This document shows, piece after piece, positions 575-21,018 of a stretch of 64,000 nt of DNA (positions are counted from its first letter, which is position 1; the number at the start of each line of letters is the position of its first letter). The notes under the pieces are model-generated. The model had not been told where the DNA came from. It worked only from the letters and a program-made list of their open reading frames with translations, and searched no databases. The stretch is taken from positions 1 to 64,000 of the forward strand of contig NZ_BMDG01000003.1 of the NCBI RefSeq assembly GCF_014635665.1, given 5' to 3'. A program made the position numbers and the translations under genes. The DNA comes from Isoptericola cucumis. Lineage in GTDB: Bacteria > Actinomycetota > Actinomycetes > Actinomycetales > Cellulomonadaceae.

Positions 575-639
575 TTGACAGAGGTCCCGGGACCGGACGA
601 GACTGTCACGGAACGGAAACGCAGTTCCAGTAGGTGGAA
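575..639 (+). promoter_or_regulatory. Promoter and tandem operator of the urate operon
   Basis: A perfect -35 box TTGACA (575-580) is followed after 18 bp by GAGACT (599-604), a -10-like box. Directly downstream are two copies of a palindrome spaced 21 bp apart: TGTC-N7-GGAA (604-618, degenerate) and TTCC-N7-GGAA (625-639, exact). The same motif occurs before hyi, allE, the malic enzyme and aceB in this window. Placement over and just after the expected start site suggests repression. The likely binder is the IclR-family protein at 4333-5085, which is inference. Confidence 0.65.
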
Positions 640-658
640 GATGTGGGAGGATCGCTCG

Positions 659-1162
659 ATGACGAGTGGCGGGCTCGAGGCGTTCAACGCCGCGGATCGG
701 TCGACTGCCCAGGCGACGGTGATGTCGTGCGCCGCCGTCCGGCGGTGGGCGGACGACATCGTGGCCGGGCGCCCCTATGCGGACGTCGGTGCGGCGCTGG
801 CCGCGGCAGAGAGTGCCGCGGACCCCTGGACCGATGCCGAGATCGACGAGGCGCTCGCGCGGCATCCTCGCATCGGCGAGCAGCCGGTGGGCGACGACGC
901 GGACTCCGACCACTCCCGAAAGGAGCAGGCCGGGGTGGACACGTCGGACGCGTCGGTGGCGGGCCGGCTGCAGGTCGGCAACCGTAGGTACGAGGACCGG
1001 TTCGGCCACGTGTTCCTGATCAGGGCCGCCGGGCGGAGCGCAGAGGAGATCCTCCGCGTGCTCGAGGAGCGACTCCAGAACGACGCCGCCACCGAACGGC
1101 GGATCGCCGCCCAGCAGCTCCGCGAGATCGCGGTCCTCCGACTCGAGGGAGAGCTCTCATGA
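659..1162 (+). CDS. uraD: OHCU decarboxylase
   Basis: This 167-residue protein is 2-oxo-4-hydroxy-4-carboxy-5-ureidoimidazoline decarboxylase, the third enzyme of urate breakdown, which yields (S)-allantoin. The catalytic histidine lies in HPRIGE (residues 69-74). The FGHVFLIRAAGRS segment near residue 115 and the arginine-rich C-terminal helix are typical of UraD. The ATG at 659 was chosen because GGGAGG sits 10 bases upstream; an earlier in-frame start would place the operator inside the gene. Its stop overlaps the uraH start in ATGA, so the two are translationally coupled. It leads the operon uraD-uraH-urate oxidase-permease. Confidence 0.93.
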   Translation: MTSGGLEAFNAADRSTAQATVMSCAAVRRWADDIVAGRPYADVGAALAAAESAADPWTDAEIDEALARHPRIGEQPVGDDADSDHSRKEQAGVDTSDASVAGRLQVGNRRYEDRFGHVFLIRAAGRSAEEILRVLEERLQNDAATERRIAAQQLREIAVLRLEGELS

Positions 1163-1497
1163 CGTCCCACGTCACCACCCACGTCCTCGATGCCGTCTCG
1201 GGGCGCCCGGCGGAGGGCATCGACGTCGCCCTGTGGCGGGTGTCGGAGGAGTCGGCCGAGCGGCTGGCCGCCGCCAGGACGGACACCGACGGCCGGGTGC
1301 GCGACCTCGGGCCCGAGGAGCTGGCGCCGGGCACCTACCGCGTCACCTTCGCGACCGGTGCCTACTTCGCAGCTCGCGGCGTCGAGACCTTCTACCCGTC
1401 GGTCACCATCGACTTCTTCGTCGAGGCCGGCCGCGACCACTATCACGTGCCGTGCCTGCTCAGTCCGTTCGCGTACTCGACCTACCGGGGAAGCTGA
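1159..1497 (+). CDS. uraH: 5-hydroxyisourate hydrolase (transthyretin-like)
   Basis: This 112-residue protein hydrolyses 5-hydroxyisourate, the product of urate oxidase, to OHCU. It shows the transthyretin-related fold signature: THVLD with His8 near the N-terminus, an arginine in TDTDGRV, and the diagnostic YRGS C-terminus (residues 109-112) preceded by HYHVPCLLSPFAYST. Length is normal for a bacterial HIU hydrolase. It overlaps uraD by four bases and lies 120 bp before urate oxidase, matching the pathway order. Confidence 0.95.
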   Translation: MTSHVTTHVLDAVSGRPAEGIDVALWRVSEESAERLAAARTDTDGRVRDLGPEELAPGTYRVTFATGAYFAARGVETFYPSVTIDFFVEAGRDHYHVPCLLSPFAYSTYRGS

Positions 1498-1617
1498 CGC
1501 CGCACCCGACCTCGCGCGCCGCGGCACCGCTGCCGCGGCCGGCGCCCACCACGTACCGAGGCCGTCGTCGTCGACGACCCCAGGCACGGCGCACGATCTA
1601 TCAAAGGAGCTAGCAGG

Positions 1618-2562
1618 ATGACCGCCACCGCCACGGACGCACAGGCCACCACGGGCACGATCGTGCTGGGAGACAACCAGTACGGCAAGGCCGAGGTCCG
1701 CGTCATGAAGGTCGACCGCGACCAGCCGCGCCACCGGATCACCGAGCTCTCGGTGACGTCGCAGCTGCGGGGGGACTTCTCCGCCGCGCACATCGAGGGT
1801 GACCAGGGCAAGGTCGTCGCGACCGACACGCAGAAGAACACGATCTTCGGGCTCGCCAAGGACGGCATCCCCTCGCCCGAGGAGTTCGCGATCCGGCTCT
1901 CCGAGCACTTCACGTCGAGCTTCGACTGGGTGGCCGGCGGTCGCTGGGAGGTCAAGGAGTACACCTGGGAGCACATCCCGTCCTCGCGGACCACCCACGT
2001 CACGGACGGCGAGCACGACCACTCGTTCGTCAAGGGCGGCACCGAGACGCGTAACACCATCGTGCAGCGCGAGGGGGACGAGGTCTTCGTGGTGTCCGGG
2101 CTGGAGGACCTCAAGGTCCTCAAGTCGACGGGGTCGGAGTTCCACGGGTTCCCCCGGGACCGCTTCACCACCCTGCAGGAGACGACGGACCGCATCCTCG
2201 CGACGTCGGTGACCGCGCGGTGGCGCTACACGTCCCTGGACATCGACTTCAACGCCGTCTACGACGACGTGCGCCGGATCCTCCTGGAGACCTTCGCGGA
2301 CGTGCACTCGCTCGCTCTGCAGCAGACGCTGTACCAGATGGGCAAGCGGGTGCTCGAGGAGCACCCCGAGATCGGTGAGATCAAGTTCTCGATGCCGAAC
2401 CTGCACCACTTCCTCGTGGACTTCGAGCCGTTCGGGATGGAGAACCCCAACGAGGTCTTCTACGTCGCCGACCGGCCGTACGGGAAGATCGAGGGGGAGG
2501 TGAAGCGCGAGGGCGCCGCGTCGGAGCCGCGCGCCTGGGCGACCGTGACCGGATTCTGCTGA
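1618..2562 (+). CDS. pucL: Urate oxidase (cofactor-free uricase)
   Basis: This 314-residue T-fold enzyme oxidises urate with O2 to 5-hydroxyisourate and H2O2 without a cofactor. The conserved lysine is K24 in YGKAEVRV, the substrate-binding Thr-Asp pair is T69-D70 in VATDTQKNTIF, and the C-terminal histidine lies in PNLHHF (H263 region). The family block TTLQETTDRILATSVTARW follows residue 184. The start is supported by AAGGAG ten bases upstream. H2O2 made here may explain the thiol peroxidase gene at 14638 in the same region; that link is inference. Confidence 0.96.
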   Translation: MTATATDAQATTGTIVLGDNQYGKAEVRVMKVDRDQPRHRITELSVTSQLRGDFSAAHIEGDQGKVVATDTQKNTIFGLAKDGIPSPEEFAIRLSEHFTSSFDWVAGGRWEVKEYTWEHIPSSRTTHVTDGEHDHSFVKGGTETRNTIVQREGDEVFVVSGLEDLKVLKSTGSEFHGFPRDRFTTLQETTDRILATSVTARWRYTSLDIDFNAVYDDVRRILLETFADVHSLALQQTLYQMGKRVLEEHPEIGEIKFSMPNLHHFLVDFEPFGMENPNEVFYVADRPYGKIEGEVKREGAASEPRAWATVTGFC

Positions 2563-2596
2563 GCCCCGCCCGCCGTCGGTCCGAAGGAGCATCGAC

Positions 2597-4273
2597 ATGA
2601 CGACCACCACGACGCAGGCGAGCCCGGCGACCGCGACGGCCGAACGTCCCGAGGACGAGCGGTACCCGGTCGGCAAGACCTTCCTCTACGGCCTGCAGCA
2701 CATCATGACGATGTACGGAGGCGTCATCGCGCCCCCGATCATCGTCGGCCAGGCCGCCGGCCTGAACGGGACGGAGATCGGCATCCTGGTGTCGGCCGCG
2801 CTGCTCGTCAGCGGTGTGGCGACGGCGCTGCAGACGCTGGGCCTGCCGTTCTTCGGCTCGCGCTTGCCGCTCGTCCAGGGCATCTCCTTCGCCACGGTCT
2901 CGACCATGGTGGCGGTCGCGAGCGGGGACGGCGGCCTGCCCGCGGTCTTCGGCTCCATCCTCGTCGCCGGGGCGATCGGCCTGGCGATCACGCCGTTCTT
3001 CGCCCGGATCGTGCGCTACTTCCCGCCGGTGGTGACCGGCACGATCATCACCGTCATCGGGATCTCGCTGCTGCCCACGGCGGCCGGTTGGATGATGGGC
3101 GGGGACGAGGAGGCCGCCGACTGGGGCTCGGTGCCCAACGTCATGCTCGCGCTCGGCACGCTCGTGGTGGTGCTGCTGCTCAGCAGGTTCCTGCAGGGCA
3201 CCATCTCGCGGCTGTCGATCCTGTTCGGACTGGTCATCGGCACCGTCGTCGCGCTGCCGCTGGGGATGGCGGACTTCTCGGAGGTCGGGTCCGGCGCGAG
3301 CTTCGCGCTGCCGCAGCTGTTCGCGTTCGGGCCGCCCGTCTTCCAGGTCGGTGCCATCATCTCGATGACCATCGTGATCCTCGTCATCATGACGGAGACC
3401 ACGGCGGACCTGGTGGCGATCGGCGAGGTGCTCGACACCGAGGTGGACGAGCGCCGGGTCGCGGACGGGCTCCGCGCCGACATGGCGGCGACGGTCCTGG
3501 CGCCCCTGGTGAACTCGTTCCCGGCGTCCGCGTTCGCCCAGAACGTGGGCCTGGTCGCGATCACGGGGATCAAGTCGCGGTTCGCCGTCGCGGCGGGCGG
3601 CTCGGTCCTCTTCGTGCTGGGGCTGTTCCCGGTGCTCGGCCGGGTCGTCGCCGCGATCCCCGAGCCGGTGCTCGGCGGCGCCGGCATCGTGCTGTTCGGA
3701 TCGGTCGCGGTCTCGGGCATCCGCACGCTGTCGCGCGTCGAGTACGAGGGCAACCTGAACCTCACCCTCGTCGCCGTCGCGATCGGCTTCGGGATCATCC
3801 CGATCGCCGTGCCCGACTTCTACGACCAGTTCCCGGTGTGGGTGGGGATGATCTTCCACTCGGGGATCGCTGCGGCGGCGGTCGTCGCCGTGCTCCTCAA
3901 CCTGGTGTTCAACGAGCTCCGGTGGGGCCGCAGGCGCGACCCCTCGGTGTTCACGGCGGGCTCGTCGGCCCGGCTCGTCGTCACCGAGGAGCAGGAGCAG
4001 CGGCGGCACGAGTACTTCGAGCGCCTGGACCTCGAGCGGCAGGCGGAGCGCCGGGCGCGCCTCAACGCGGACGTCCGCGCCCGGGTGCGCCACGGCCACG
4101 GACGGCGTTCGGGCTGCGTGTCGGCGATCGACCTGGACGCCGACGGGGTGCCTGACGTGCTGCAGGTCCGGGACGGTGCGCGTGCTGCCGTCGGTGCGCC
4201 GCGCAGGGACGCCACGGCGTCCGAGGAGCACCCGGTGCTCCTTGGTGCGGGTGCCGGAGCGAAGGACGCGTGA
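2597..4273 (+). CDS. NCS2-family urate/xanthine permease
   Basis: This is a nucleobase:cation symporter of the NCS2 (uracil-xanthine permease) family, placed last in the urate operon, so urate or xanthine is the likely substrate. It begins with the TM1 block GLQHIMTMYGG, has ETTADLVAIGEV near residue 267 (substrate-binding acidic residue in TM8), and the NCS2 signature QNVGLVAITG near residue 315. About 12-14 hydrophobic segments are visible up to roughly residue 440. The last ~115 residues form a charged hydrophilic tail rich in Arg, Glu and Asp, longer than usual for the family (about 430-480 residues). The ribosome site AAGGAG precedes the ATG. Confidence 0.92.
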   Translation: MTTTTTQASPATATAERPEDERYPVGKTFLYGLQHIMTMYGGVIAPPIIVGQAAGLNGTEIGILVSAALLVSGVATALQTLGLPFFGSRLPLVQGISFATVSTMVAVASGDGGLPAVFGSILVAGAIGLAITPFFARIVRYFPPVVTGTIITVIGISLLPTAAGWMMGGDEEAADWGSVPNVMLALGTLVVVLLLSRFLQGTISRLSILFGLVIGTVVALPLGMADFSEVGSGASFALPQLFAFGPPVFQVGAIISMTIVILVIMTETTADLVAIGEVLDTEVDERRVADGLRADMAATVLAPLVNSFPASAFAQNVGLVAITGIKSRFAVAAGGSVLFVLGLFPVLGRVVAAIPEPVLGGAGIVLFGSVAVSGIRTLSRVEYEGNLNLTLVAVAIGFGIIPIAVPDFYDQFPVWVGMIFHSGIAAAAVVAVLLNLVFNELRWGRRRDPSVFTAGSSARLVVTEEQEQRRHEYFERLDLERQAERRARLNADVRARVRHGHGRRSGCVSAIDLDADGVPDVLQVRDGARAAVGAPRRDATASEEHPVLLGAGAGAKDA

Positions 4274-4292
4274 CCAGGGGGACCTGTGCCGG

Positions 4293-4327
4293 GGGCCGGG
4301 GCGGCGGGAGGACCGCCGCCCCGGCCC
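4293..4327. terminator. Bidirectional hairpin between permease and regulator
   Basis: A perfect 15-bp inverted repeat, 4293-4307 with 4313-4327 and a 5-base loop, sits between the stop codons of two converging genes. It has no T-tract, as is usual in this genome. Confidence 0.75.
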
Positions 4328-4332
4328 GGGCG

Positions 4333-5085
4333 TCAGCCCGCGGAGAGCAGCTCGGTCGAGATCGCCCGCGCCGCGTCCTGCAGGAGCGGGAGCGCGCGCT
4401 CACCGAACTCGTAGGTGACGCGGGCGGCCGGCCCGGAGACGGACAGGGCGGTCGGCGTCGGTGCCCCCTCGACCGGGACGGCGAAGCAGCGCACCCCGAT
4501 CTCCTGCTCGCCGTCGTCCACCGCGTGGCCCTGCTCGCGGATCTTGGCCATCTCCGCCAGGAGGTCGTCGACGTTCGTGATGGACAGGTCGGTGGCGGGC
4601 GGCATCCCGACGCGGCCCACGATCTCGCGGACCGTGGTGTCGGGGAGCTCGGAGAGCACCATCTTGCCGACGCCGGTGCAGTGGCAGTACACGCGGCGCC
4701 CGACCTCGGTGAACATCCGCATCGAGTGGGACGACGCCGCCTGCGCGACGTAGACGACCATGTCGCGGTCGATCATCGCGAGGTTGGCGGTCTCGCCGAG
4801 CTCGCGCGCCAGCCGCTCGAGGTGCGGGCGGGCGCTCGCGCCGAGCTGGCGCCCGGCGCTCTCGCCGAGACGGATGAGGCGGGGCCCGAGCGTGTACCGG
4901 CGGGAGGGCAGCTGGCGCGCGTACCCGCGCACGACCAGCGTCCGCATGAGCCGGTGGATCGTCGGCAGCGGCAGCTCCGCAGCCGCGGCGAGCTCGCTCA
5001 GGCCGGCGTCACCGCCGAGGTCCGTCATGATCTCGAGCAGGTCGATCGCCCGGTCCACGGACTGGACGCTCGGGCCGTTCGCCAT
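4333..5085 (-). CDS. allR: IclR-family regulator of allantoin/glyoxylate genes (AllR-like)
   Basis: A DNA-binding repressor-type protein of about 250 residues. The winged helix-turn-helix is at the N-terminus (SVDRAIDLLEIM, then LPLPTIHRLMRTLVVRGYARQ). The IclR effector-binding domain follows, with HSMRMFTEVGRRVYCHCTGVGKM and the closing segment ALSVSGPAARV. I chose the ATG at 5085 over one six bases upstream because the purine-rich GAAGGGGG then has normal spacing. It is divergent from the malic enzyme and flanked by urate and glyoxylate genes, so control by allantoin or glyoxylate is likely. It is the obvious candidate binder for the TTCC-N7-GGAA sites found in five promoters here. The effector and the name are inference. 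Confidence 0.85.
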   Translation of the reverse strand: MANGPSVQSVDRAIDLLEIMTDLGGDAGLSELAAAAELPLPTIHRLMRTLVVRGYARQLPSRRYTLGPRLIRLGESAGRQLGASARPHLERLARELGETANLAMIDRDMVVYVAQAASSHSMRMFTEVGRRVYCHCTGVGKMVLSELPDTTVREIVGRVGMPPATDLSITNVDDLLAEMAKIREQGHAVDDGEQEIGVRCFAVPVEGAPTPTALSVSGPAARVTYEFGERALPLLQDAARAISTELLSAG

Positions 5086-5198
5086 GGTCATGCCCCCTTC
5101 AGCGCGTGCCGGCCGCGACGCCGGCCACCCACAGGTCGATGTCCGTGATCAGCGGTACCGATCAGCGGGGGAGCCGCGACCGGCTCCCAGAAGCATCT

Positions 5199-5213
5199 TT
5201 CCACATCTCGAAA
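5199..5213 (+). promoter_or_regulatory. Operator copy before the malic enzyme
   Basis: TTCC-N7-GAAA lies in the divergent region between the IclR gene and the malic enzyme. It differs from the exact motif by one base and is identical in half-sites to the second site before hyi. It could control both genes. No clear -35/-10 pair was recognised. Confidence 0.45.
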
Positions 5214-5249
5214 CTGACTGTCAGCAGATCCCCGAAAGGACACCCGGAC

Positions 5250-6743
5250 ATGGCGATGCCCAGCCCGAGCTACACGATCACCCTGCGCGTCGAGGCGCCG
5301 GCGACCCAGCGTGCGACGAGCGAGATCGTCCACGAGGTCGCGACCGCCGGAGCGTCGGTCATGGGCGTCGACATCGCCCAGTCGCACGCCGACGTGATCG
5401 TCGTCGACGTCACGTGCGACACCGTCGACGCGGAGCACGGCGAGCGCATCGTCGAGGCGCTCGACGCCCTCGACGGGGTGCGCGTGCTGAAGATGTCGGA
5501 CTCGACCTTCCTCATGCACCTCGGCGGGAAGATCTCGGTCACGCCCAAGGTGCCGCTCAAGACCCGCCGCGACCTCTCCCGGGCCTACACGCCGGGTGTC
5601 GCGCGGGTCTGCACGGCGATCGCGAACCGCAAGGAGGACGCCCGGCGCCTGACGATCAAGCGCAACACGGTCGCGGTCGTCACCGACGGCACGGCCGTGC
5701 TCGGACTCGGCGACATCGGCCCCGAAGCCGCCATGCCGGTGATGGAGGGCAAGGCGGCGCTGTTCAAGCAGTTCGCCGACGTCGACGCCTGGCCGCTCGC
5801 GCTGGACACCACCGACACCGAGGAGATCATCCGCACGGTCAAGGCGATCGCCCCGGGCTTCGGGGGCGTGAACCTCGAGGACATCTCCGCACCGCGGTGC
5901 TTCGAGATCGAGCGACGCCTGCGCGAGGAGCTGGACATCCCCGTCTTCCACGACGACCAGCACGGCACGGCGATCGTCGTGCTGGCCGCGCTGATCAACG
6001 CCCTCAAGGTCACGGGCAAGAAGATCGGGGACGTGCGGATCGTCGTGTCGGGCGTCGGCGCGGCCGGCTCGGCGATCATCCGCCTGCTGCTCGCCCAGGG
6101 CGCGCGGGACATCATCGGCTGCGACCGCCACGGGGCGCTCACGACGTCGTCGGCGGCCGGCGACGCCAGCCGCACGTGGATCGTCGAGAACACCAACCCG
6201 TCCGAGGCCGCCGGCTCGCTCCAGGAGGTGCTCGTGGGCGCCGACGTCTTCGTCGGGGTCTCGGCCGGCAACATCCTCACGGGTGCCGACGTGGCCAGGA
6301 TGAACGACGGGGCGATCGTCTTCGCGCTGGCGAACCCCACGCCGGAGGTCGACCCGATCGCGGCGGGGGAGACGGCGGCCGTCGTGGCGACGGGCCGCAG
6401 CGACTACCCCAACCAGATCAACAACGTGCTGGCGTTCCCGGGCCTGTTCCGCGGGCTGCTCGACGCGGGCGCCACCCAGATCACCGACGAGATGCTGCGT
6501 GTCGCGGCCGTGGCGATCGCGTCGGTCGTCGGGGACGAGGAGCTGAACCCCGCGTTCATCATCCCGGGCGTCTTCGACCACCGGGTGGCCGAGGCCGTCG
6601 CCGAGGCGGTGCGCGTCGAGGGGATCAAGGAGACGCCCGCGTCCACGGCACGCGCCGAGGACGCCGAGCACCTGGCCGAGCACCTCGGGCGCGCCCTGCA
6701 GACCGGGTCCGCCTCGGGCGCCGCGACGGGGACCGCGCGATGA
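5250..6743 (+). CDS. NAD(P)-dependent malic enzyme with N-terminal ACT domain
   Basis: Converts malate to pyruvate and CO2 with reduction of NAD(P). Residues 1-85 form an ACT-type regulatory domain (TITLRVEAPATQRATSEIV). The malic N-domain follows with YTPGVA (Y113) and MEGKAALFK (K168/K173). Metal ligands lie in NLEDISAPRCFEIE and FHDDQHGTA, and the Rossmann loop is GVGAAGSA. At 497 residues it matches actinobacterial ACT-containing malic enzymes. The start at 5250 is supported by AAAGGA. Its stop overlaps the next gene in ATGA. Neighbouring malate synthase makes malate from glyoxylate, so this enzyme could complete a glyoxylate-to-pyruvate route. Cofactor preference cannot be read. Confidence 0.9.
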   Translation: MAMPSPSYTITLRVEAPATQRATSEIVHEVATAGASVMGVDIAQSHADVIVVDVTCDTVDAEHGERIVEALDALDGVRVLKMSDSTFLMHLGGKISVTPKVPLKTRRDLSRAYTPGVARVCTAIANRKEDARRLTIKRNTVAVVTDGTAVLGLGDIGPEAAMPVMEGKAALFKQFADVDAWPLALDTTDTEEIIRTVKAIAPGFGGVNLEDISAPRCFEIERRLREELDIPVFHDDQHGTAIVVLAALINALKVTGKKIGDVRIVVSGVGAAGSAIIRLLLAQGARDIIGCDRHGALTTSSAAGDASRTWIVENTNPSEAAGSLQEVLVGADVFVGVSAGNILTGADVARMNDGAIVFALANPTPEVDPIAAGETAAVVATGRSDYPNQINNVLAFPGLFRGLLDAGATQITDEMLRVAAVAIASVVGDEELNPAFIIPGVFDHRVAEAVAEAVRVEGIKETPASTARAEDAEHLAEHLGRALQTGSASGAATGTAR

Positions 6744-8029
6744 GCGACTCTCTCGACACGTCCCTCGACGCTTCCCTCGACACGTCCCTCGACCAGGCGA
6801 CCCTCGACGACGTCGAACGACGACTCGCGGCGCACGACCGGCACCTGGAGGAGGCGTACCCCGGCGACGACGGCACGCGCCAGCCGGTGCACACCGTCTA
6901 CGTCCCCGCGCACCGCTACACGGCCGGCCTCGCCGAGGAGTGGGGCGCCCAGGCGCGCAAGGCGCTCGCGGCACAGGGCGTCGGCGCGCTGCTGGACGCT
7001 GCAGCGGTCCGGGCCGACCTGCGCGACGACGTCGCGGCGCGGGTGGAGGCGAAGCTGGCTGCGGAGCCGATCGAGGACCTGCGCATCGACCTGGAGGACG
7101 GGTACGGCGACCATCCGGACGCCGACGAGGACGCCGTCACCGTCGCGGCGGCGCGGGCCCTGCGCACCGAGCTCGACGACGGTCGCGCGACCCCGTTCGT
7201 CGGGATCCGGTTCAAGTGCTTCGAGAAGCCCACCCGGGCCCGCGGGCTGCGCACGCTCGACCTGTTCCTGAGCACGCTGGCGCGATCGGGCGACCTCCCG
7301 GAGGGTCTCGTCGTCACGCTGCCCAAGGTCACTGCCGTGGCCCAGGTCGAGGCGATGGTCGCGGTCTGCGAGCGGATCGAGCGGGCGACGGGCCTGCCCG
7401 GCCGGCGGCTGCGCTTCGAGGTCCAGGTCGAGACGCCGCAGTCGATCCTGGACGCCGCGGGGACGGCGACGGTGGCACGGATGATCCATGCCGGCGACGG
7501 CCGGGTGAGCGGCCTCCACTACGGCACCTACGACTACTCGGCGTCGCTCGGCATCGCGGCCGCCTACCAGTCGATGGAGCACCCCGCGGCCGACCTCGCC
7601 AAGGAGGTCATGCAGCTCGCGGCCGCCGGGACGGGCGTGCGCCTGTCCGACGGCTCGACGAACGTGCTTCCGGTGGGTGACGACGCGCAGGTGCGCGCGG
7701 CGTGGCGCAACCACGGCCGGCTGGTGCGCCGGTCGCTCGAGCGCGGTTTCTACCAGGGATGGGACCTGCACCCCGCGCAGCTGCCGAGCCGCTTCGCGGC
7801 GACGTACGCGTTCTACCGGGACGGGTTCGAGCCGGCCGCGCGGCGCCTGCACGACTACGTGAACCAGGTCTCGGGCGCCGTCCTCGACGAGCCGGCCACC
7901 GCCCGGGCCCTCGCGTGGTACCTCAAGCGCGGGCTCGACTGCGGCGCCCTGGGGGCCGACGAGCTCACCGGTGCGACGGGGCTGACGCCCGCCGAGCTCA
8001 CCGCGATGGTGGTGCCGTCCGCGGACTGA
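6740..8029 (+). CDS. Citrate-lyase-beta/HpcH-like aldolase family protein of unknown substrate (DUF6986-like)
   Basis: A 429-residue TIM-barrel protein related to HpcH/HpaI aldolases and citrate lyase beta subunits. Visible motifs: RIDLEDGYG (D117, E119, D120), VGIRFKCFEKPTRARG, a LPKV strand (K196), FEVQVETPQSI (E231, the usual metal ligand position), LHYGTYDYSASLGI and GWDLHPAQLPSRF. This family carries loose names in databases, including aldolase and phosphoenolpyruvate kinase; I do not trust any of them. It is coupled to the malic enzyme by a four-base overlap and sits among glyoxylate genes, so C-C bond chemistry on glyoxylate, malate or a ureido acid is plausible but unproven. The N-terminus is a low-complexity SLDT repeat. 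Confidence 0.75.
   Translation: MSDSLDTSLDASLDTSLDQATLDDVERRLAAHDRHLEEAYPGDDGTRQPVHTVYVPAHRYTAGLAEEWGAQARKALAAQGVGALLDAAAVRADLRDDVAARVEAKLAAEPIEDLRIDLEDGYGDHPDADEDAVTVAAARALRTELDDGRATPFVGIRFKCFEKPTRARGLRTLDLFLSTLARSGDLPEGLVVTLPKVTAVAQVEAMVAVCERIERATGLPGRRLRFEVQVETPQSILDAAGTATVARMIHAGDGRVSGLHYGTYDYSASLGIAAAYQSMEHPAADLAKEVMQLAAAGTGVRLSDGSTNVLPVGDDAQVRAAWRNHGRLVRRSLERGFYQGWDLHPAQLPSRFAATYAFYRDGFEPAARRLHDYVNQVSGAVLDEPATARALAWYLKRGLDCGALGADELTGATGLTPAELTAMVVPSAD
6752..6793 (+). repeat. 12-bp tandem repeat in the aldolase N-terminus
   Basis: CTCGACACGTCC occurs at 6752-6763 and 6776-6787 with a variant between them (6764-6775) and a partial copy after. It encodes SLDT-like units just after the start codon and is likely to vary in copy number. 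Confidence 0.8.
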
Positions 8030-8127: not shown

Positions 8128-8192
8128 TTGACCGTGCGGACCGAGCCGCGTAGCGTTTCCACCACAAGGAACAGAACTTCCAGATTGCGAAA
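8128..8192 (+). promoter_or_regulatory. Promoter and tandem operator of the glyoxylate operon
   Basis: TTGACC (8128-8133) and TAGCGT (8151-8156) are 17 bp apart and form a good -35/-10 pair. Two operator copies follow at once: TTCC-N7-GGAA (8157-8171) and TTCC-N7-GAAA (8178-8192), exactly 21 bp (two helical turns) apart. Sites would cover the transcription start near 8163, consistent with repression. Confidence 0.75.
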
Positions 8193-8203: not shown

Positions 8204-9016
8204 ATGGCGGACCAGATCCCCTACACCGTGAACTGCTCGATCCTGCTGACCGACCTGCCGCTCCTCGAGCGCCCGGCGGCGGCCAAGGCCGCCGGTTTCG
8301 ACGGCGTCGAGTTCTGGTGGCCGTTCGCGTCGTCGACGCCGGCCGCCGACGAGATCGACGCGTTCGTCGGCGCGATCGCGGACGCCGGCGTCCAGCTCAC
8401 CGGGCTCAACTTCAACGCCGGCGACATGCCCGGCGGCGACCGCGGCCTGATCTCCTGGCCCGCCCGGTCCGCCGAGCTGCGGGACAACCTCGACGTCGTC
8501 GCGCGCATCGGCGAGCGCACCGGCTGCCGCGCGTTCAACGCGCTGTACGGCAACCGGCAGCCCGGCGAGGACGCCGCCGCGCAGGACGCGCTCGGGGCCG
8601 AGAGCCTGGCCCTCGCGGCGAAGGCCGTCGAGCGCATCGGCGGCACCGTCCTGCTCGAGCCCGTCTCGGGTGCCGACGCCTACCCGCTCAAGACCTCGGA
8701 CGACGCCGTCGCCGTCCTCGACCGGGTGCGCGACGAGCACGACGCGACCAACCTCGGCCTGCTGTTCGACGTCTACCACCTCGCGGTGAACGGGGCAGAC
8801 GTCGACGTCGACCTGAAGAACCACGCCGAGCGCATCGCGCACGTGCAGGTCGCCGACGCCCCCGGGCGCGGTGCCCCGGGCAGCGGCGACCTGCCGATCC
8901 AGCGCTGGATCGGTGACCTGCGCGACGCCGGCTACGCCGGACCGGTCGGGCTCGAGTACAAGACCGCCGACGTCCACCCGTTCGCCTGGCTGCCGCGCGA
9001 GGAGCGCTCCGCCTGA
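8204..9016 (+). CDS. hyi: Hydroxypyruvate isomerase
   Basis: A 270-residue TIM-barrel isomerase interconverting hydroxypyruvate and tartronate semialdehyde. It starts with the family block YTVNCSILLTDLPLLERPAAAK and carries metal-binding residues in LLEPVSG (E152), LLFDVYH (D189), HVQVADAPGR (Q215) and GLEYK (E251). It is the first gene after the operator-bearing promoter, followed by glxR, gcl, glxK and allB, the usual order in allantoin and glyoxylate clusters. No strong Shine-Dalgarno is visible, but the reading frame and homology block start exactly at this ATG. Confidence 0.93.
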   Translation: MADQIPYTVNCSILLTDLPLLERPAAAKAAGFDGVEFWWPFASSTPAADEIDAFVGAIADAGVQLTGLNFNAGDMPGGDRGLISWPARSAELRDNLDVVARIGERTGCRAFNALYGNRQPGEDAAAQDALGAESLALAAKAVERIGGTVLLEPVSGADAYPLKTSDDAVAVLDRVRDEHDATNLGLLFDVYHLAVNGADVDVDLKNHAERIAHVQVADAPGRGAPGSGDLPIQRWIGDLRDAGYAGPVGLEYKTADVHPFAWLPREERSA

Positions 9017-9151: not shown

Positions 9152-10030
9152 ATGAGCACCATCGCCTTCATCGGCCTCGGCATCATGGGCAGCCCGATGG
9201 CCGTCCACCTGCAGGACGCCGGTCACGCCGTCGTCGGCTACAACCGCACGGCCGCCAAGGCCCAGCCCCTCGTGGAGGCGGGTGGCACCGCCGCGTCGTC
9301 GGTCGCCGAGGCGGTCAAGGCCGCCGACGTGGTGGCCGTCATGGTCCCCGACTCGGCGGACGTCGAGGCCGTCCTCACGGGCGACGACGGCGTCCTCGTG
9401 AACGCGCAGCCGGGCACCCTGATCGTCGACTTCTCCTCGATCCGCCCGGACGTCACCATCGCGCTCGCCGAGCAGGCGCGTGCCGGCGGGTTCCGCTACC
9501 TCGACGCGCCGGTCTCCGGCGGCGAGGCGGGCGCCAAGAACGCCGCCCTGTCGATCATGGTCGGCGGCGAGGCCGAGGACTTCGCCGCGGCGCAGGACGT
9601 CTTCGACGCCGTGGGCAAGACGATCGTGCACGTCGGCCCGTCCGGCTCCGGCCAGACCGTCAAGGCCGCCAACCAGCTCATCGTCGCGGGCAACATCGCG
9701 CTGCTCGCCGAGGCCGTCGTCTTCCTCGAGGCCTACGGCGTCGACACCGAGGCGGCCGTGAAGGTCCTCGGCGGCGGGCTGGCCGGCTCCGCGGTGCTGA
9801 ACCAGAAGGCCGAGAAGATCCTCGGCCGCGAGTTCGCCCCGGGCTTCCGGATCGACCTGCACCACAAGGACCTGGGGATCTTCACCTCGGCCGCCCGCGA
9901 GGAGGGCGTGGTGGCGCCGGTCGGCGCCGTCGTCGCCCAGCTCATGGCCGCGGCCCGCGCCGCGGGCGACGGCGACCTGGACCACTCCGGCCTGTTCCGC
10001 GCCGTCGCGCGCCTGTCCGGCCGCGACTGA
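9152..10030 (+). CDS. glxR: 2-hydroxy-3-oxopropionate (tartronate semialdehyde) reductase
   Basis: A 292-residue beta-hydroxyacid dehydrogenase that reduces tartronate semialdehyde, made by Gcl, to D-glycerate. The Rossmann glycine motif GLGIMGSPM begins at residue 8, the substrate loop [11 protein letters not shown] at 118-128, and the catalytic lysine is K171 in GQTVKAANQ with N174. Length and motif spacing match GarR/GlxR. A GGAAGGA ribosome site precedes the ATG. It lies between hyi and gcl, so the assignment to the glyoxylate pathway is firm. Confidence 0.94.
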
Positions 10031-10076: not shown

Positions 10077-11864
10077 ATGCCCCGCATGCGCGCGGTAGAC
10101 GCCGCGGTCGCCATCCTGGCGAAGGAGGGCGCCACGGAGGCTTTCGGCCTCCCCGGCGCCGCCATCAACCCGTTCTACGACGCCATGCGCCAGCACGGCG
10201 GCATCCACCACGTGCTCGCGCGGCACGTCGAGGGCGCGTCGCACATGGCCGACGGCTACTCGCGTGCCGCGCGGGGCAACATCGGCGTCTGCATCGGTAC
10301 GTCCGGCCCGGCGGGCACGGACATGATCACCGGCCTGTACGCCGCGTGGGCCGACTCGGTCCCGATGCTGTGCCTCACGGGCCAGGCCCCGGTGGCCAAG
10401 CTCGACAAGGAGGACTTCCAGGCCGTCGACATCGCGTCGATCGCCGCGCCCGTCACCAAGATGGCCAGGACGGTGCTCGAGGCCTCGCAGGTGCCGGGGG
10501 TGTTCGCCAAGGCGTTCCAGCTGATGCGCTCGGGCCGGCCGGGCCCGGTGCTGATCGACCTGCCGATCGACGTCCAGCAGACGGAGATCGACTTCGACCC
10601 CGAGACGTATGCGCCGCTGCCCGTCGAGCGCCCGGATGCCACGCGCGAGCAGGTCGCCACGGCCCTGGACATGCTGCTGGCGGCGGAGCGCCCGCTGATC
10701 GTCGCGGGCGGCGGCATCATCAACGCCGGCGCCGAGGCCGAGCTGGTGGAGCTGGCCGAGACCCTCGGGGTGCCCGTGGTGCCCACGCTCATGGGCTGGG
10801 GCGCCATCGGCGACGATCACCCGCTGGCCGCGGGCATGGTCGGCATCCAGACGTCGCACCGCTACGGCAACGCGACGTTCCTGGAGTCCGACTTCGTGCT
10901 CGGCGTCGGCAACCGGTGGGCCAACCGCCACACCGGCGGCCTGAAGACCTACACCGAGGGCCGCACCTTCGTGCACGTCGACATCGAGCCCACGCAGATC
11001 GGCCGCGTGTTCGCGCCGGACTACGGCGTGGTGTCCGACGCGGGCGCGTTCCTGCGCGCCGCGCTCGAGGTCGCCGCCGAGCGCAGGGCCGCCGGCCGGG
11101 TGCCGGACTACACGGCCTGGGCCGCCTCCGCGCAGGAGCGCAAGGGCACGCTGCAGCGCAAGACGCACTTCACCGAGGTGCCGATCAAGCCGCAGCGGGT
11201 GTACGAGGAGATGAACAAGGCCTTCGGCCGCGACACCGTCTACGTCACGACCATCGGGCTGTCGCAGATCGCCGGCGCCCAGCTGCTGCACACGTACCAC
11301 CCGCGGCACTGGATCAACGCCGGCCAGGCGGGCCCCCTGGGCTGGACCGGACCCGCTGCCCTGGGCGTGTCCCGCGCGCTCCCGGGCGGGAACGTCGTCG
11401 CGCTCTCCGGGGACTACGACTTCCAGTTCATGCTGGAGGAGCTGGCCGTGGGCGCCCAGCACCACCTGCCGTACGTGCACGTCGTGGTGAACAACGCCTA
11501 CCTGGGCCTCATCCGCCAGTCGCAGCGCGCGTTCGACATGGACTTCCACGTGTCCCTCGCGTTCGACAACATCAACATGGGCCGCAGCGAGGGCGAGCCC
11601 GAGGGCTACGGCGTCGACCACGTCAAGGTCGCCGAGGCGCTCGGCTGCAAGGCGATCCGGGTCTCCGACCCGGAGGACCTGGGCGCCGCGTTCGCGAAGG
11701 CTCAGGCCATGACGGCCGAGCTGCAGGTGCCGGTCGTGGTCGAGGTCATCCTCGAGCGCGTCACGAACATCGCGATGGGCGCCGAGCTCAACGGGGTCAA
11801 CGAGTTCGAGGACCTGGCGATCTCCGCCGCGGACTCGCCGACCGCGATCGCGCTCCTCGACTGA
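10077..11864 (+). CDS. gcl: Glyoxylate carboligase
   Basis: A 595-residue thiamine-diphosphate enzyme that joins two glyoxylates to tartronate semialdehyde with loss of CO2. It resembles acetohydroxyacid synthase but has [13 protein letters not shown] with valine at residue 51, where AHAS-type enzymes have the otherwise universal glutamate. That Val51 is the known mark of glyoxylate carboligase and separates this gene from ilvB at 32002. The ThDP-binding segment starts at GDYDFQFM near residue 446 and runs to [17 protein letters not shown] precedes the ATG. Confidence 0.96.
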
Positions 11865-11991: not shown

Positions 11992-13188
11992 ATGACGACG
12001 ACGGACCGCGCGCCGCGCGTGCTGCTGGCCCCTGACAAGTTCAAGGGCTCGCTGTCCGCGGGCGAGGTGGCCGCCCACCTGGCGGCGGGCCTGCGCCGCG
12101 CGGTGCCGGACGTCGTCACGGACGAGCTCCCCGTCGCCGACGGCGGCGAGGGCACCCTCGAGGCCGCCCTCGCCGCCGGCTGCACGCCGGTCGACCTGGT
12201 GGCGACGGGTCCCCTCGGGGAGCCGGTCGCGACCCGGTACGCCCGGCGCGGGACGACGGCCGTCGTCGAGATGGCGGCCGTCAGCGGGCTCGCGATGGTC
12301 CGGCCCGGCCGGGCGACGGCGCTCGCGGCCACGTCGCGTGGCCTGGGGGAGCTCGTGGCCCACGCGCTCGACGCGGGGGCGCGGGAGATCGTCGTCGGTG
12401 TCGGCGGCTCGGCCAGCACCGACGGGGGCGCGGGGATGCTCGCCGCGCTGGGCGCCCGGCTCACCTCCGGGGCGGGCGACGTCGCCGACGGCGGCGGCCA
12501 CCTGCACGAGATCACGGACGTCGACCTCGCCGGGCTGCACCCGGCCCTCGCGGAGACGGAGATCGTCCTCGCGAGCGACGTGGACAACCCGCTGCTCGGC
12601 GAGCACGGGGCGGCCGCGGTGTACGGACCTCAGAAGGGTGCCGACCCGGCGACGCTGGCCGAGCTCGAGCTGGGCCTCGCGACCTGGGTCGACGTCCTGG
12701 CGACCGTGGGCGTCACGGGCGCGCGCGACCACGCGGCCGCGGCCGGCGCGGGGGCCGCCGGCGGGGTGGGTTTCGCCTGCCTGCTGCTGGGCGCGGTGCG
12801 GCGGCCGGGCGTCGAGGAGGTGCTCGCGCTCACGGGCTTCGCGGACCGCCTCGTGGGCGTGGACCTCGTCGTGACCGGCGAGGGCAGCCTCGACGCCCAG
12901 TCCCTGCACGGCAAGACGCCGGTCGGGGTCGCGGCCGCCGCGGCCGCGGCCGGCGTCCCCGCCGTCGCGGTGTGCGGGCGCAGCGGCCTCACCGCCGCGC
13001 AGGCCGCCGCCGCCGGGCTCGGTGCGGTGCACGCGCTCACGGACGTCGAACCCGACGTCGGCCGCTGCATCGCCGAGGCCGGGCCCCTCCTGGAGTCGCT
13101 CGCCCCGCGGCTCGCCGACCATCTGCCGACGCCGGTCGCGCTCCACGCCGCCGGCGCCGAGACCTCTACCTCCTGGGAGCACGCATGA
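11992..13188 (+). CDS. glxK: Glycerate kinase
   Basis: A 398-residue GarK/GlxK-type glycerate kinase that phosphorylates D-glycerate and so feeds glyoxylate carbon into glycolysis. The N-terminal [11 protein letters not shown] and the VADGGEGT and [16 protein letters not shown] glycine-rich blocks are family hallmarks. I chose the ATG at 11992, which has GGGGAGGGAC immediately upstream and starts seven residues before the conserved strand; a longer in-frame reading would cover the intergenic repeat. The stop overlaps the allB start in ATGA. The C-terminal ~20 residues are variable. Confidence 0.92.
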
Positions 13189-14561
13189 CCACTGCCGCCA
13201 CGACCGGCCCCGGCGACGACGCCACGCCGGACGGCCTCTTCGACCTCGTCCTCCGCGCCGCGCGCGCCGTGCTCCCCGAGGGGGAGCGGGCCGTCGAGGT
13301 CGGTGTCTCGGGCGGCCGCGTCGCCGCCGTCGCGCCGCTCGGCACGGGCCTGAGATGCGCCGAGGTGGTCGAGCTGGCCGACGACGAGGTGCTGCTGCCG
13401 GGCCTCGTCGACTCGCACGTGCACGTCAACGAGCCGGGCCGCACCGAGTGGGAGGGGTTCGCCTCCGCGACGCGCGCCGCCGCGGCGGGCGGCGTCACGA
13501 CCATCGTCGACATGCCGCTCAACTCGCTGCCGCCCACCACGACCGTCGAGCACCTCGACGTCAAGCGCGAGCGCGCCGCCGGGCAGGCTTTCGTCGACGT
13601 CGGGTTCTGGGGCGGTGCGGTGCCGGGCAACACGGCCGACCTGCGGCCGCTGCACGACGAGGGCGTCTTCGGCTTCAAGTGCTTCCTGGCCGACTCCGGG
13701 GTGCCGGAGTTCCGCCACCTGGAGGCCGACGAGCTGCGCGCGGACCTCGCCGAGCTGAAGACCTTCGACGGCCTGATGATCGTGCACGCGGAGGACCCGG
13801 GCGCGCTCTCGGGGGCCCCGCAGGCGCCGGGGCGCCGGTACAGCGACTTCCTCGCCTCGCGGCCGGCGACGGCGGAGTCCACCGCGATCGCCGCGGTCGT
13901 CGACGCCGCCCGTGCGACGGGCGCCCGCGCGCACGTGCTGCACCTGTCCGACGCGGACTCGCTGCCGCTGATCGCCGCGGCCCGGGCCGACGGCGTGCGG
14001 CTCACGGTGGAGACCTGCCCGCACTACCTGTCGCTGGACGCGGACCACGTGCCGGACGGCGCGACGGCGTACAAGTGCTGCCCGCCGATCCGCGAGTCCG
14101 CCAACCAGGACCGCCTGTGGCAGGGGCTGCTCGACGGGGTGATCGACGTCGTCGTGACCGACCACTCCCCGGCGACCGCCGACCTCAAGGAGCCCGTGGA
14201 CGGCGACTTCGCCGCCGCCTGGGGCGGGGTGGCCTCGCTGCAGCTCGGGCTCGCGGTGGTGTGGACCGAGGCGCGGCGCCGGGGCGTCCCGCTCGAGCGT
14301 GTGGTGCGGTGGATGTCGGCCGGGCCCGCGGGGCTCGTCGGGCTCGAGCGCAAGGGCGCGATCGCGGTGGGCAAGGACGCGGACCTCGTGGTGTTCGCGC
14401 CGGAGGCGACGTTCGTCGTCGAGCCTGCCCGCCTGCACCACAAGAACCCGGTGACCCCGTACGCGGGCCGCGACCTGACCGGCGTCGTGCGGCGCACGCT
14501 GCTGCGCGGTGCCGAGGTGACCGACGAGCCCGCGGGCACGCTGCTGCGCCGCGAGGGCTGA
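13185..14561 (+). CDS. allB: Allantoinase
   Basis: A 458-residue cyclic amidohydrolase that opens allantoin to allantoate. Zinc-site residues are visible in order: HVH (H78, H80) in [10 protein letters not shown], the lysine that is normally carboxylated (K165) in GFKCFL, H201 in IVHAED, H253 in VLHLSD and D326 in VTDHSP. The KCF context and [10 protein letters not shown] fit allantoinase better than dihydropyrimidinase or dihydroorotase. It is translationally coupled to glxK, so allantoin opening and glyoxylate use share one transcript. The next enzyme (allantoate amidohydrolase or allantoicase) is not found nearby. Confidence 0.93.
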
Positions 14562-15111: not shown

Positions 15112-15127
15112 GCGACGCCGGACGCGC

Positions 15128-15178
15128 TATGGTGGCCGTGATTTCCATCAGGCGTAATTTCCATTCCACTGAGCAACG
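15128..15178 (+). promoter_or_regulatory. Candidate promoter and operator of malate synthase
   Basis: TATGGT (15128-15133) is a possible -10 box. TTCC half-sites begin at 15143 and 15164, again 21 bp apart; the first forms TTCC-N7-GTAA (one mismatch to the motif), while the second has a poor right half. ATTTCCAT is also directly repeated at 15141-15148 and 15157-15164. Weaker than the sites before uraD, hyi and allE. Confidence 0.45.
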
Positions 15179-15196: not shown

Positions 15197-16783
15197 GTGG
15201 AGCTCCCCGACGGGCTGACCATCACCGGCGAGATCGGTGAGCGTGATCGTGAGGTCCTGACCCCGGCCGCGCTGGACCTGATCGTGACCCTGCACCGTGA
15301 GCTGGGCGCCCGGCGTCTGGAGCTGCTGGAGGCGCGGCAGCGTCGCCGCGACGACCTGGCAAACGGCGGCACGCTCGACTTCCTGCCCCAGACGGCGCAC
15401 GTGCGCGCGGACGACTCGTGGAAGGTCGCCCCGCCGGCACCCGGGCTGGTGGACCGGCGGGTGGAGATCACCGGGCCGACGGACCGCAAGATGACGGTCA
15501 ACGCGCTGAACTCGGGCGCCAAGGCGTGGCTGGCGGACCAGGAGGACGCGAACACGCCGCGCTGGGACGCGGTGGTGGGCGGCCAGCTGAACCTGCTGGA
15601 CGCGATCGAGCGGCGGATCGACTTCACGAACGAGGCGGGCAAGTCGTACGCCCTGAAGCCGGACGACGAGCTCGCGACGATCATCGTGCGCCCGCGCGGG
15701 TGGCACCTGAACGAGAAGCACGTGCTCGTCGACGGCCAGGAGACCTCCGGGTCGCTGGTGGACTTCGCGCTGTACGTCGCGACGGCGGGCCTGCGGCAGA
15801 TCGCCAAGGGCCTCGGGCCGTACTTCTACCTGCCCAAGATGGAGTCGCACCTGGAGGCGCGGCTGTGGAACGACGCGTTCGTCATCGCGCAGGACGCCCT
15901 CGGCATCCCGCGCGGCACGATCCGTGCCACGGTGCTCATCGAGACGATCCCGGCGGCGTTCGAGATGGAGGAGATCCTCTACGAGCTGCGCGAGCACTCG
16001 TCCGGCCTCAACGCCGGGCGCTGGGACTACCTCTTCTCCGTGGTGAAGAACTTCCGCACCCGCGGGCACGAGTTCCTGCTGCCGGACCGCAACCAGATCA
16101 CGATGACGGTGCCGTTCATGCGCGCGTACACGGAGCTGCTGGTGGCGACGTGCCACAAGCGCGGCGCGCACGCGATCGGCGGTATGGCGGCGTTCATCCC
16201 GTCCAAGGACGAGGAGGCCAACGCGAACGCGTACGCCAAGGTGCGCGCCGACAAGGCGCGCGAGGCCGGCGACGGGTTCGACGGGTCCTGGGTGGCGCAC
16301 CCGGGCATGGTCGCCACGTGCAAGGAGGTCTTCACCGAGGTGCTCGGCGAGCGGCCGAACCAGATCGAGCGCACCCGTGAGGACGTGCAGGTGACCGCCG
16401 CGGACCTGCTCGCGGTCGACAAGACCCCGGGCACCGTCACCGAGGCCGGGCTGCGCAACAACATCTCGGTCGGGATCCAGTACCTGCACGCCTGGCTGGG
16501 CGGCCTGGGCGCGGTCGCGATCTTCGGGCTCATGGAGGACGCCGCGACCGCGGAGATCTCCCGCTCGCAGGTGTGGCAGTGGCTGCACAACGAGGTCACG
16601 CTCGCCGACACCGGCGCGACGGTGACCCGCGAGCTGGTCGACCGGATCGTGGCCGAGGAGGTCGCGAAGCTGCCGGGCGACGCGGGCGACTACGACGTCG
16701 CGCGCAGCACCTTCATGGAGGTGGCTGTGGCCGACGAGTACGTCGACTTCCTCACGACCGCCGCCTACGAGCGGATGGCCTGA
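15197..16783 (+). CDS. aceB: Malate synthase A
   Basis: Condenses glyoxylate with acetyl-CoA to malate. At 528 residues it is the A isoform, not the ~730-residue G isoform. The signature SSGLNAGRWDYLFSVVKNF is present near residue 269, with RATVLIETIPAAFEMEEIL and the acidic NNISVGIQYLHAWLGGLGAV region downstream. It starts with GTG; AAGGAGG lies eight bases upstream. Isocitrate lyase is not nearby, while glyoxylate-producing purine genes are, so its main role here is probably purine-derived glyoxylate. It probably has its own promoter. Confidence 0.96.
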   Translation: MELPDGLTITGEIGERDREVLTPAALDLIVTLHRELGARRLELLEARQRRRDDLANGGTLDFLPQTAHVRADDSWKVAPPAPGLVDRRVEITGPTDRKMTVNALNSGAKAWLADQEDANTPRWDAVVGGQLNLLDAIERRIDFTNEAGKSYALKPDDELATIIVRPRGWHLNEKHVLVDGQETSGSLVDFALYVATAGLRQIAKGLGPYFYLPKMESHLEARLWNDAFVIAQDALGIPRGTIRATVLIETIPAAFEMEEILYELREHSSGLNAGRWDYLFSVVKNFRTRGHEFLLPDRNQITMTVPFMRAYTELLVATCHKRGAHAIGGMAAFIPSKDEEANANAYAKVRADKAREAGDGFDGSWVAHPGMVATCKEVFTEVLGERPNQIERTREDVQVTAADLLAVDKTPGTVTEAGLRNNISVGIQYLHAWLGGLGAVAIFGLMEDAATAEISRSQVWQWLHNEVTLADTGATVTRELVDRIVAEEVAKLPGDAGDYDVARSTFMEVAVADEYVDFLTTAAYERMA

Positions 16784-16898: not shown

Positions 16899-16941
16899 TC
16901 GTCGTCCCCCCGGGCGGGGCCCTGCGAGGGGCGCGGACCAC

Positions 16942-16947
16942 TAGACT
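16942..16947 (+). promoter_or_regulatory. -10 box of gatCAB, leaderless-type
   Basis: TAGACT ends seven bases before the gatC ATG and no Shine-Dalgarno is visible, the layout of a leaderless transcript. No clear -35 box. Confidence 0.55.
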
Positions 16948-16954
16948 GGCGGCC

Positions 16955-17251: not shown

Positions 17252-17252
17252 G

Positions 17253-18758: not shown

Positions 18759-18782
18759 GCACGAGAACAGGAGAACACCACT

Positions 18783-20291: not shown

Positions 20292-20869
20292 GGACGCCGG
20301 TCCTGCACGGCGAGATGGTGCGCCTGCGCACCATCGAGGCGCGGGACGCCGACCGGCTGTGGATGTCGCTGCGCGACCCGGACAGCGGGCGGCTGCGCGG
20401 CATGGGGACGGACGCGTCGTCCAGCCGCGCGGACGTGGACGCGTGGGCGGCGGCCGCGGCGGACCTGCCGGGCCGGTACGACTGGGCCATCACGCCGGCC
20501 GCCGTCCGGGACGGCGAGCTCGTGAGCGACGACCTGATCGGCGAGATCTCGCTCGACCAGGTCGACCTGCACGTGCGCTCCGCCAACCTGCGGCTGCGCA
20601 TGATGCCCGACTACCGGGGTCGCGGGTACGGGCGGGAGGCGATCGGCGAGGTGCTGCGCTTCGCGTTCGACGCCGACGGGCTCGGCCTGCACCGGGTGAC
20701 CCTGTCCGTGATCAGCCTCCACCCGCGGGCTCGGGCCCTCTACGACTCCCTCGGGTTCCGCGAGGAGGGTCGCCTGCGCGACGCGTACCGCGACGGCGAC
20801 GGCTGGGCCGACGCCGTGGTGATGAGCATCCTGGAGGACGAGTACCGCGCCGGGGTCGGCGCCGACTGA
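20288..20869 (+). CDS. GNAT-family N-acetyltransferase (RimJ/RimL-like)
   Basis: A 193-residue acetyltransferase of the RimJ/RimL branch, which acetylate protein N-termini, amino groups or small molecules. It opens with the family-like [21 protein letters not shown]. The acetyl-CoA loop is RGRGYGREA, and [22 protein letters not shown] is the typical C-terminal half. It is coupled to gatB by a four-base GTGA overlap, so it is co-expressed with tRNA amidation; the substrate cannot be told. Confidence 0.85.
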
Positions 20870-20903
20870 GGCGGGTGCTCCGTCGATCAGCGCCGGTCGT
20901 GCC

Positions 20904-20925
20904 GCCGGGACCGTCGTGTCCCGGC
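20904..20925 (+). terminator. Terminator after the gatCAB operon
   Basis: GCCGGGAC (20904-20911) pairs with GTCCCGGC (20918-20925) around a six-base loop, 35 bases after the acetyltransferase stop. Confidence 0.6.
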
Positions 20926-20956
20926 CGGTGCGGCCGGCGTTCGTCGTCGGGGCTGC

Positions 20957-21018
20957 TTGACACCTCCCTCGACCCGCCTTAAGTTCATATCGCAGAAGAC
21001 AGATTCCGAAGCACGGAA
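20957..21018 (+). promoter_or_regulatory. Promoter and operator of allE
   Basis: TTGACA (20957-20962) and TAAGTT (20980-20985) are separated by 17 bp, the best sigma-70-type promoter in the window. An exact operator TTCC-N7-GGAA lies at 21004-21018, also readable as TTCCG-N5-CGGAA. A degenerate copy (GTTC-N7-AGAA, 20983-20997) is 21 bp upstream and overlaps the -10 box. Confidence 0.8.

Follow-up and report, generated by a model that had tools for sequence, protein, structure and literature searches.

A stretch of 64,000 nucleotides from Isoptericola cucumis (contig NZ_BMDG01000003.1 of assembly GCF_014635665.1, positions 1 to 64,000; hereafter the window) carries genes of purine breakdown and glyoxylate use, and copies of the palindrome TTCC-N7-GGAA lie before several of them. 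Do these palindromes tie the genes into one regulon, and which protein reads them? A first-pass annotation of the window proposed a single regulon of five transcription units, starting with uraD, the malic enzyme gene (mae), hyi, the malate synthase gene aceB and allE, under a local IclR-family gene (iclR). The analysis presented here, which rests on sequence comparison, suggests with a rough probability of 0.88 that the IclR-family protein encoded at 4333-5091, a predicted regulator of the actinobacterial AllR type, uses these sites as its operators. The features concerned are the following.

4333..5091, minus strand: IclR-family regulator, predicted to be of the actinobacterial AllR type, divergent from mae (Pfam IclR_C, HTH_IclR)
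605..618, plus strand: weaker second box about two turns upstream of the uraD main operator, GTCACGGAACGGAA
625..639, plus strand: main operator before uraD, TTCCAGTAGGTGGAA, exact TTCC-N7-GGAA, matrix score 20.1
5190-5192: GAA half-site beside the iclR-mae operator
5199..5213, plus strand: operator between iclR and mae, TTCCACATCTCGAAA, one mismatch, matrix score 16.4
8157..8171, plus strand: operator 1 before hyi, TTCCACCACAAGGAA, exact, matrix score 17.8
8178..8192, plus strand: operator 2 before hyi, 21 base pairs (bp) past operator 1, TTCCAGATTGCGAAA, one mismatch, matrix score 18.7
15143..15157, plus strand: operator before aceB, TTCCATCAGGCGTAA, one mismatch, matrix score 15.9
15164-15167: TTCC half-site beside the aceB operator
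20984..20997, plus strand: weaker second box before allE, TTCATATCGCAGAA
21004..21018, plus strand: main operator before allE, TTCCGAAGCACGGAA, exact, matrix score 24.6

All six sites of the first-pass annotation lie where it placed them, exact at 625, 8157 and 21004 and with one mismatch at 5199, 8178 and 15143; the weak box before allE is an addition to its list. The exact palindrome occurs three times in the window, a count reached in none of 100 shuffles; 0.15 would be expected. It could still be argued that these are chance palindromes picked by eye in a single window, and the one-mismatch set lends itself to this argument, being only mildly in excess (14 found, 7.6 expected; 2 of 100 shuffles reach 14). 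The sites at 5199, 8178 and 15143 were therefore judged by conservation. Independent evidence comes from a symmetric matrix of 27 columns, built from 30 sites of other genomes only. Two of 32 exact sites were dropped from its input as strays (L055:14981, inside allB, and L056:7112, target gene not identified), and L066:838 was retained, although its target gene is likewise not identified. By this matrix the six sites take ranks 1 to 6 in the window (scores 24.6 to 15.9), and rank seven, 12.8 at 25306, lies within a gene. Fifteen first-order Markov windows hold a mean of 0.07 matches scoring 12 or more, and one simulated window gave a score of 18.8. To examine the spacing of the arms, 326 kilobases (kb) of cluster sequence were used, 24 kb from the window and the rest from 13 relatives (stretches from 12, plus the hyi locus of G051, L032). 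There are 31 matches at gap 7 and 0 to 6 at each other gap from 0 to 19. In the same DNA, 95 palindromes of the same composition average 2.1 matches, the highest being TCGA with 23. A chance origin was rejected on the spacing control, the matrix ranking and the conservation before orthologs of the same genes, and is barely conceivable.

This conservation was assessed in 58 genomes, in 14 of which, this one included, an ortholog of the IclR protein was found at E 1e-40; the region scored runs from 250 bases before the start to 20 inside the gene. In the relatives, a site matching with one mismatch or none precedes uraD in 7 of 8 cases (five exact, two with one mismatch), hyi in 10 of 10 (seven exact, three with one mismatch), mae in 7 of 8 (four and three), aceB in 6 of 9 and allE in 5 of 6 (three and two), the allE site of G040 being weak and perhaps due to chance. 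The count for iclR, 11 of 12, partly includes mae or aceB sites a second time. Such sites were absent before the orthologs of uraH, uacT, glxR, glxK, allB, gatA, gatB and pot (0 of 54, pooled) and occasional before gcl (1/9), bcp (1/6), DUF6986 (1/9) and uox (2/8).

The presence of the site before aceB also follows the presence of the regulator. Upstream regions were read for 30 of the 54 aceB matches, which come from 39 genomes. Allowing one mismatch at most, the site was present in 9 of 13 where the genome has the ortholog versus 1 of 17 where it is missing at E 1e-40 (Fisher p 0.0004); an exact site was present in 5 of 13 versus 0 of 17 (Fisher p 0.009). The four misses among genomes with the ortholog are G010, G024, G040 and G017; in G024 aceB lies downstream of mae, which has a site, and in G040 and G017 the aceB locus read is other than the cluster copy. 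In G022, which lacks the IclR ortholog but has hyi and aceB, the aceB site is absent. Three lines of evidence speak for one regulon governed by the local IclR gene: the palindrome recurs at these five units in relatives, it is rare before aceB in genomes lacking the ortholog, and the ortholog stands beside these genes in other actinobacteria.

These data also bear on the possibility that the sites are bound by another IclR-family protein of this genome, or by a regulator of another family, with the local gene controlling something else. The genome has several further strong IclR-type helix-turn-helix (HTH) matches, and short palindromes can be common within the IclR family. However, the aceB site tracks this particular ortholog. 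A small locus of iclR, aceB and glcD, with exact sites before iclR and aceB, is found in G023:C19 (L049), G031:C1 (L053) and four Promicromonospora (L102, L103, L104, L106); in G023 and G031 glcD lies downstream of aceB, behind iclR. Moreover, when eight IclR-type proteins of this genome were compared with 11 orthologs, the window protein was the best each time and the other seven remained below 39% identity. Binding by another protein is thus very unlikely, and the protein of 4333-5091 is retained as the probable reader of the sites.

The window protein matches PF09339 with 59.9 bits and PF01614 with 135.2 bits, both above the cut-off, and is 61 to 65% identical to the 11 orthologs compared, of which the five streptomycete ones give 61-64%; the S. 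coelicolor protein itself lies outside this comparison. The named ortholog loci, the best 80 of 586 confirmed stretches, belong to Georgenia, Cellulosimicrobium, Promicromonospora, Oerskovia, Microbacterium, Arthrobacter, Streptomyces and others, and the regulator gene stands beside purine or glyoxylate genes in Streptomyces, Arthrobacter, Microbacterium, Cellulosimicrobium, Promicromonospora and others. In the 13 Streptomyces loci it adjoins allB, with aceB on the opposite side in 12 (in L171, a 3.5-kb record, only allB is visible); TTCC-N7-GGAA occurs there 25 times, in 11 of the 13 loci, and other gaps occur 2.1 times on average and at most 6. The less GC-rich Arthrobacter loci have a high background (49 matches at gap 7 versus a mean of 17 elsewhere), and three Cryobacterium loci share one exact site among them.

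The first-pass annotation had named a genome scan as the test that could overturn its proposal, should the motif stand at chance frequency before unrelated genes. The exact motif occurs in 17 places of this genome versus 4 for a reversed control pattern. The bare exact motif is not specific and is therefore insufficient alone for calling targets genome-wide. The strict pattern TTCC-R-N5-Y-GGAA was counted in nine genomes with the ortholog and three without. The nine contain 57 strict places, of which 23 could be assigned to positions before regulon genes and 1 more lies inside the G047 cluster; the remaining 33 amount to 3.7 per genome, versus 9, or 3.0 per genome, where the ortholog is absent. 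The reversed control gives 10 places (1.1 per genome) with the ortholog and 1 (0.3) without, so that the motif outside the regulon is still commoner than its control. The outcome of this test is mixed: away from regulon genes the strict motif is about as frequent in genomes with the regulator as in those without it, and the surplus is found at regulon genes.

Among the other exact places of this genome, all but C23:289 examined, L011, L013 and L014 (G000:C11, C14) were rejected as regulon operators, since they fall within genes for tRNA-Ile and tRNA-Val. The places C2:139625, C2:256987 and C12:11700 were set aside as lying within long reading frames, and C14:71901 because it stands where such a frame ends. 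A matching frame at G013:C1:3934349, kinase-like by eye, contains the 15-mer of C2:256987 again, probably a coding coincidence. No supporting conservation was found here for C2:333416, C4:120924, C8:8393, C8:166631 and C16:111973; the site at G000:C8:166631-166645 (L178) is exact and of the strict form, about 40-100 bp before a gene that is amidohydrolase-like by eye, and is a possible target.

On another contig, an exact operator (G000:C4:437-451; L007, L174) precedes an operon that codes for a GlcD-like FAD (flavin adenine dinucleotide) oxidase, another FAD-binding protein, a CCG protein of the iron-sulfur type and a permease of the L-lactate type, and that is read as glcDEF-permease. The best NCBIfam model for the oxidase is glycolate oxidase GlcD, which it matches below the cut-off. 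A TTCC half-site lies 21 bp upstream of this operator, together with the promoter-like pair TTGACC-17-TAAGGT. The glcD gene of G051 has an exact site too, and G044, which lacks the ortholog, has no site before glcD. Among the best 80 of 586 loci, glcD is close to the regulator gene in four from Promicromonospora, one from Cryobacterium and one from Arthrobacter; no glcD match was found at E 1e-100 in the four closest same-genus ortholog genomes (G003, G005, G010, G013). These data suggest that the regulon has to be widened to the glcDEF-permease operon outside the window, and glycolate oxidation is its probable sixth unit. It is quite likely that in these actinobacteria a general glyoxylate regulon is switched by the AllR-type protein and includes both glycolate oxidation (glcDEF and the lactate-type permease) and purine breakdown, so that glycolate and purines are sensed through one shared product, and that in genomes of the Promicromonospora type the regulator's locus has shrunk to iclR-aceB-glcD, with no purine genes adjacent.

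Several observations weigh against the proposed regulon, besides the mild excess of one-mismatch sites and the simulated score of 18.8. Only 4 of the 17 exact places in this genome precede regulon genes and 13 do not. Exact gap-7 sites are present in 67 of the named 80 loci, not all of them before regulon genes, and such sites are missing from two Nocardiopsis and 2 of the 13 Streptomyces loci. The aceB gene of G010 has no site at one mismatch or fewer, and several units in G003, G005, G010, G013 and G041 hold one-mismatch sites only. The protein also stays under the curated cut-offs of the NCBIfam equivalogs for IclR, AllR and BhcR: it scores 125.7 bits with the E. coli IclR model PRK11569 (cut-off 380), 89 bits with the E. 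coli AllR model PRK10163 (cut-off 406) and 176.8 bits with the BhcR model NF045644 (cut-off 350).

The next issue is how the sites would act. The likely promoters are listed below.

575..604, plus strand: likely uraD promoter, TTGACA at 575 and a -10-like CGAGAC/GAGACT at 598-604
8128..8156, plus strand: likely hyi promoter, TTGACC, 17 bp, and TAGCGT abutting the operator start
20957..20985, plus strand: likely allE promoter, TTGACA, 17 bp, and TAAGTT

The proposal that the sites begin directly after the -10 box holds at hyi; at uraD and allE a weak box precedes the main site. A scan for TTGAC at mae and aceB found no -35. At uraD, hyi, allE and glcD, where -35/-10-like pairs occur, the operators lie at or just past the -10, and this position suits a repressor. 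It bears on the alternative that the protein acts at some units as an activator or a dual regulator, similar to BhcR of Paracoccus, and not as a plain repressor. S. coelicolor AllR is reportedly a negative regulator. An AllR homolog is stated in passing to repress (PMC12772271). The BhcR model is the best-scoring one in NCBIfam, at the sub-threshold score given above, and BhcR is reported to be an activator in vivo (PMC11323563). Activation at some units is considered unlikely, and a repressor at 4333-5091 remains the preferred reading.

A second site at 21 bp had been proposed for uraD, hyi and aceB. At hyi it is a full site (8157/8178), at uraD a weak box (605-618) and at aceB a half-site (15164-15167). 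In 35 sites, six of them from this genome, GAA is found at offset -9 in 18 and TTC at offset -20 in 12, the means over offsets being 0.7 and 0.5. The palindrome match at offset -21 averages 4.49 of 8 in these sites versus a background of 1.95, and 3.96 versus 1.86 in 75 sites of the named loci, whose genomes partly overlap. The tandem box is at full strength at every unit in neither set, 29 of the 75 sites reaching 6 of 8; in this genome a box or half-site can be seen by eye at each of the six units. The arrangement corresponds to the tandem operators of the IclR family, with a second site 18-22 bp away, centre to centre. Tandem sites 18 to 22 bp apart are described for 94 IclR orthologous groups and related to tetramers (PMC8222616), and a second box is therefore usual for the family.

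It is proposed that a dimer of the regulator most likely binds TTCC-R-N5-Y-GGAA and that a second dimer joins on the weaker box about two turns away. The bound dimers would cover the -10 box and the DNA up to a point shortly beyond the transcription start and so block transcription of the genes leading from urate to allantoin and from allantoin to glyoxylate, of those consuming glyoxylate and, in this organism, of glycolate oxidase. Autoregulation of iclR from the iclR-mae operator may be expected. Glyoxylate, perhaps together with allantoate, would release the repressor, and the pathway would open as the shared product accumulates. Allantoate is reportedly the effector in work on S. coelicolor AllR. 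A second-hand mention of allantoate as AllR effector is found in PMC11438217. The E. coli IclR residues contacting the glyoxylate oxygens (PMC11323563, Table 1) map to G140, D192, S217 and S219 of the window protein, and V141 stands for Ala161, a position held by Ile in BhcR. All five are invariant in 13 aligned sequences, and glyoxylate is a likely effector.

The genes of the window were named by NCBIfam and Pfam models.

659-1162, plus strand: uraD (NCBIfam/Pfam)
1159-1497, plus strand: uraH (NCBIfam/Pfam)
1618-2562, plus strand: urate oxidase (NCBIfam/Pfam)
2597-4273, plus strand: purine permease (NCBIfam/Pfam)
5250-6743, plus strand: malic enzyme (Pfam; below the NCBIfam malic-enzyme cut-offs)
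6761-8029, plus strand: DUF6986 protein (Pfam)
8204-9016, plus strand: hyi (best model hydroxypyruvate isomerase, below the NCBIfam cut-off)
9152-10030, plus strand: glxR
10077-11864, plus strand: gcl
11992-13188, plus strand: glxK
13173-14561, plus strand: allB
15197..16783, plus strand: malate synthase aceB, cluster copy (second copy on contig C6)
21047..21883, plus strand: allE, (S)-ureidoglycine aminohydrolase (scanned as 20957-21883)

From their spacing, uraD, uraH, urate oxidase and the purine permease (659..4273, plus strand) probably form one unit. The malic enzyme has a weak ACT-like match at its N-terminus, under the Pfam cut-off. With 473 bits (cut-off 350), AllE also passes an NCBIfam model of a bifunctional allantoicase/ureidoglycine aminohydrolase. 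The AllC model TIGR03176 has no match in this genome at E 0.001. Other genes of the window are a peroxiredoxin-like bcp, an amidase-family gene labelled gatA, gatB and the peptide permease gene pot. Positions 1-240 of the window are nearly identical to 1-240 of G000:C4 (L007) and appear by eye to be the end of a ribosomal RNA operon with 5S rRNA. Given these near-identical contig starts, the uraD and glcD units each seem to lie directly downstream of an rRNA operon.

Many actinobacteria have kept this regulator, and the analysis offers for it an operator definition open to testing and a list of targets. The results suggest that one signal gates both the scavenging of nitrogen from purines and the use of glycolate. 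To a specialist, the wiring would be expected from Streptomyces AllR; the added parts are the glycolate oxidase branch and the detail of the tandem boxes.

Among known systems, E. coli AllR is an IclR-family repressor of allantoin and glyoxylate genes whose binding is lowered by glyoxylate (PMC11323563), but its motif, KTTGGAAWAWTWTTCCAAC, has the arms in reverse order when compared to the operator described here (PMC8222616, Table 1). E. coli IclR and P. denitrificans BhcR are glyoxylate-responsive members of the same family and largely share the ligand oxygen-contact residues with the window protein; their targets, aceBAK and the bhc cluster, differ. The arm layout found here is that of GenR of Corynebacterium glutamicum, with the motif ATTCC-N7(5)-GGAAT (PMC8222616, Table 1). 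GenR, compared here by its motif, is listed there for the use of gentisate and 3-hydroxybenzoate, whereas the neighbours of the window regulator are purine and glyoxylate genes. In Streptomyces, a gene in the FK506 (tacrolimus) cluster is called AllR as well (PMC6022917, PMC3551636). A literature search, limited to titles and passages and with subscription literature largely outside it, found no description of an actinobacterial AllR regulon that includes glycolate oxidase.

S. coelicolor AllR, which like the window protein belongs to the IclR family, is said to repress the allantoin pathway (reportedly the work of Navone et al. in 2015), its targets being allantoin and glyoxylate genes including hyi. 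In that species, SCO6247 is allantoinase (PMC3992018) and SCO6243 is malate synthase (PMC8981147). The likeness is drawn by way of related Streptomyces loci, the published motif of S. coelicolor AllR being outside the comparison: the window protein is orthologous to the streptomycete regulators encoded beside allantoinase and malate synthase genes, and the same palindrome is present at 11 of those 13 loci. HTH and effector domains, orthology, a shared operator, and allantoin and glyoxylate targets, as judged from sites and gene identities, are thus found together here as in the Streptomyces type. Unlike in the S. coelicolor set, sites also lie at uraD-uox-permease, at malic enzyme-DUF6986 and at glcDEF-permease. 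The wiring is already known in kind, since AllR-type loci of streptomycetes carry this operator and have similar targets, and is therefore less new than the first-pass annotation held. What the sequence predicts is an AllR regulon of the Streptomyces type, in one more actinobacterial group and with a somewhat wider set of targets.

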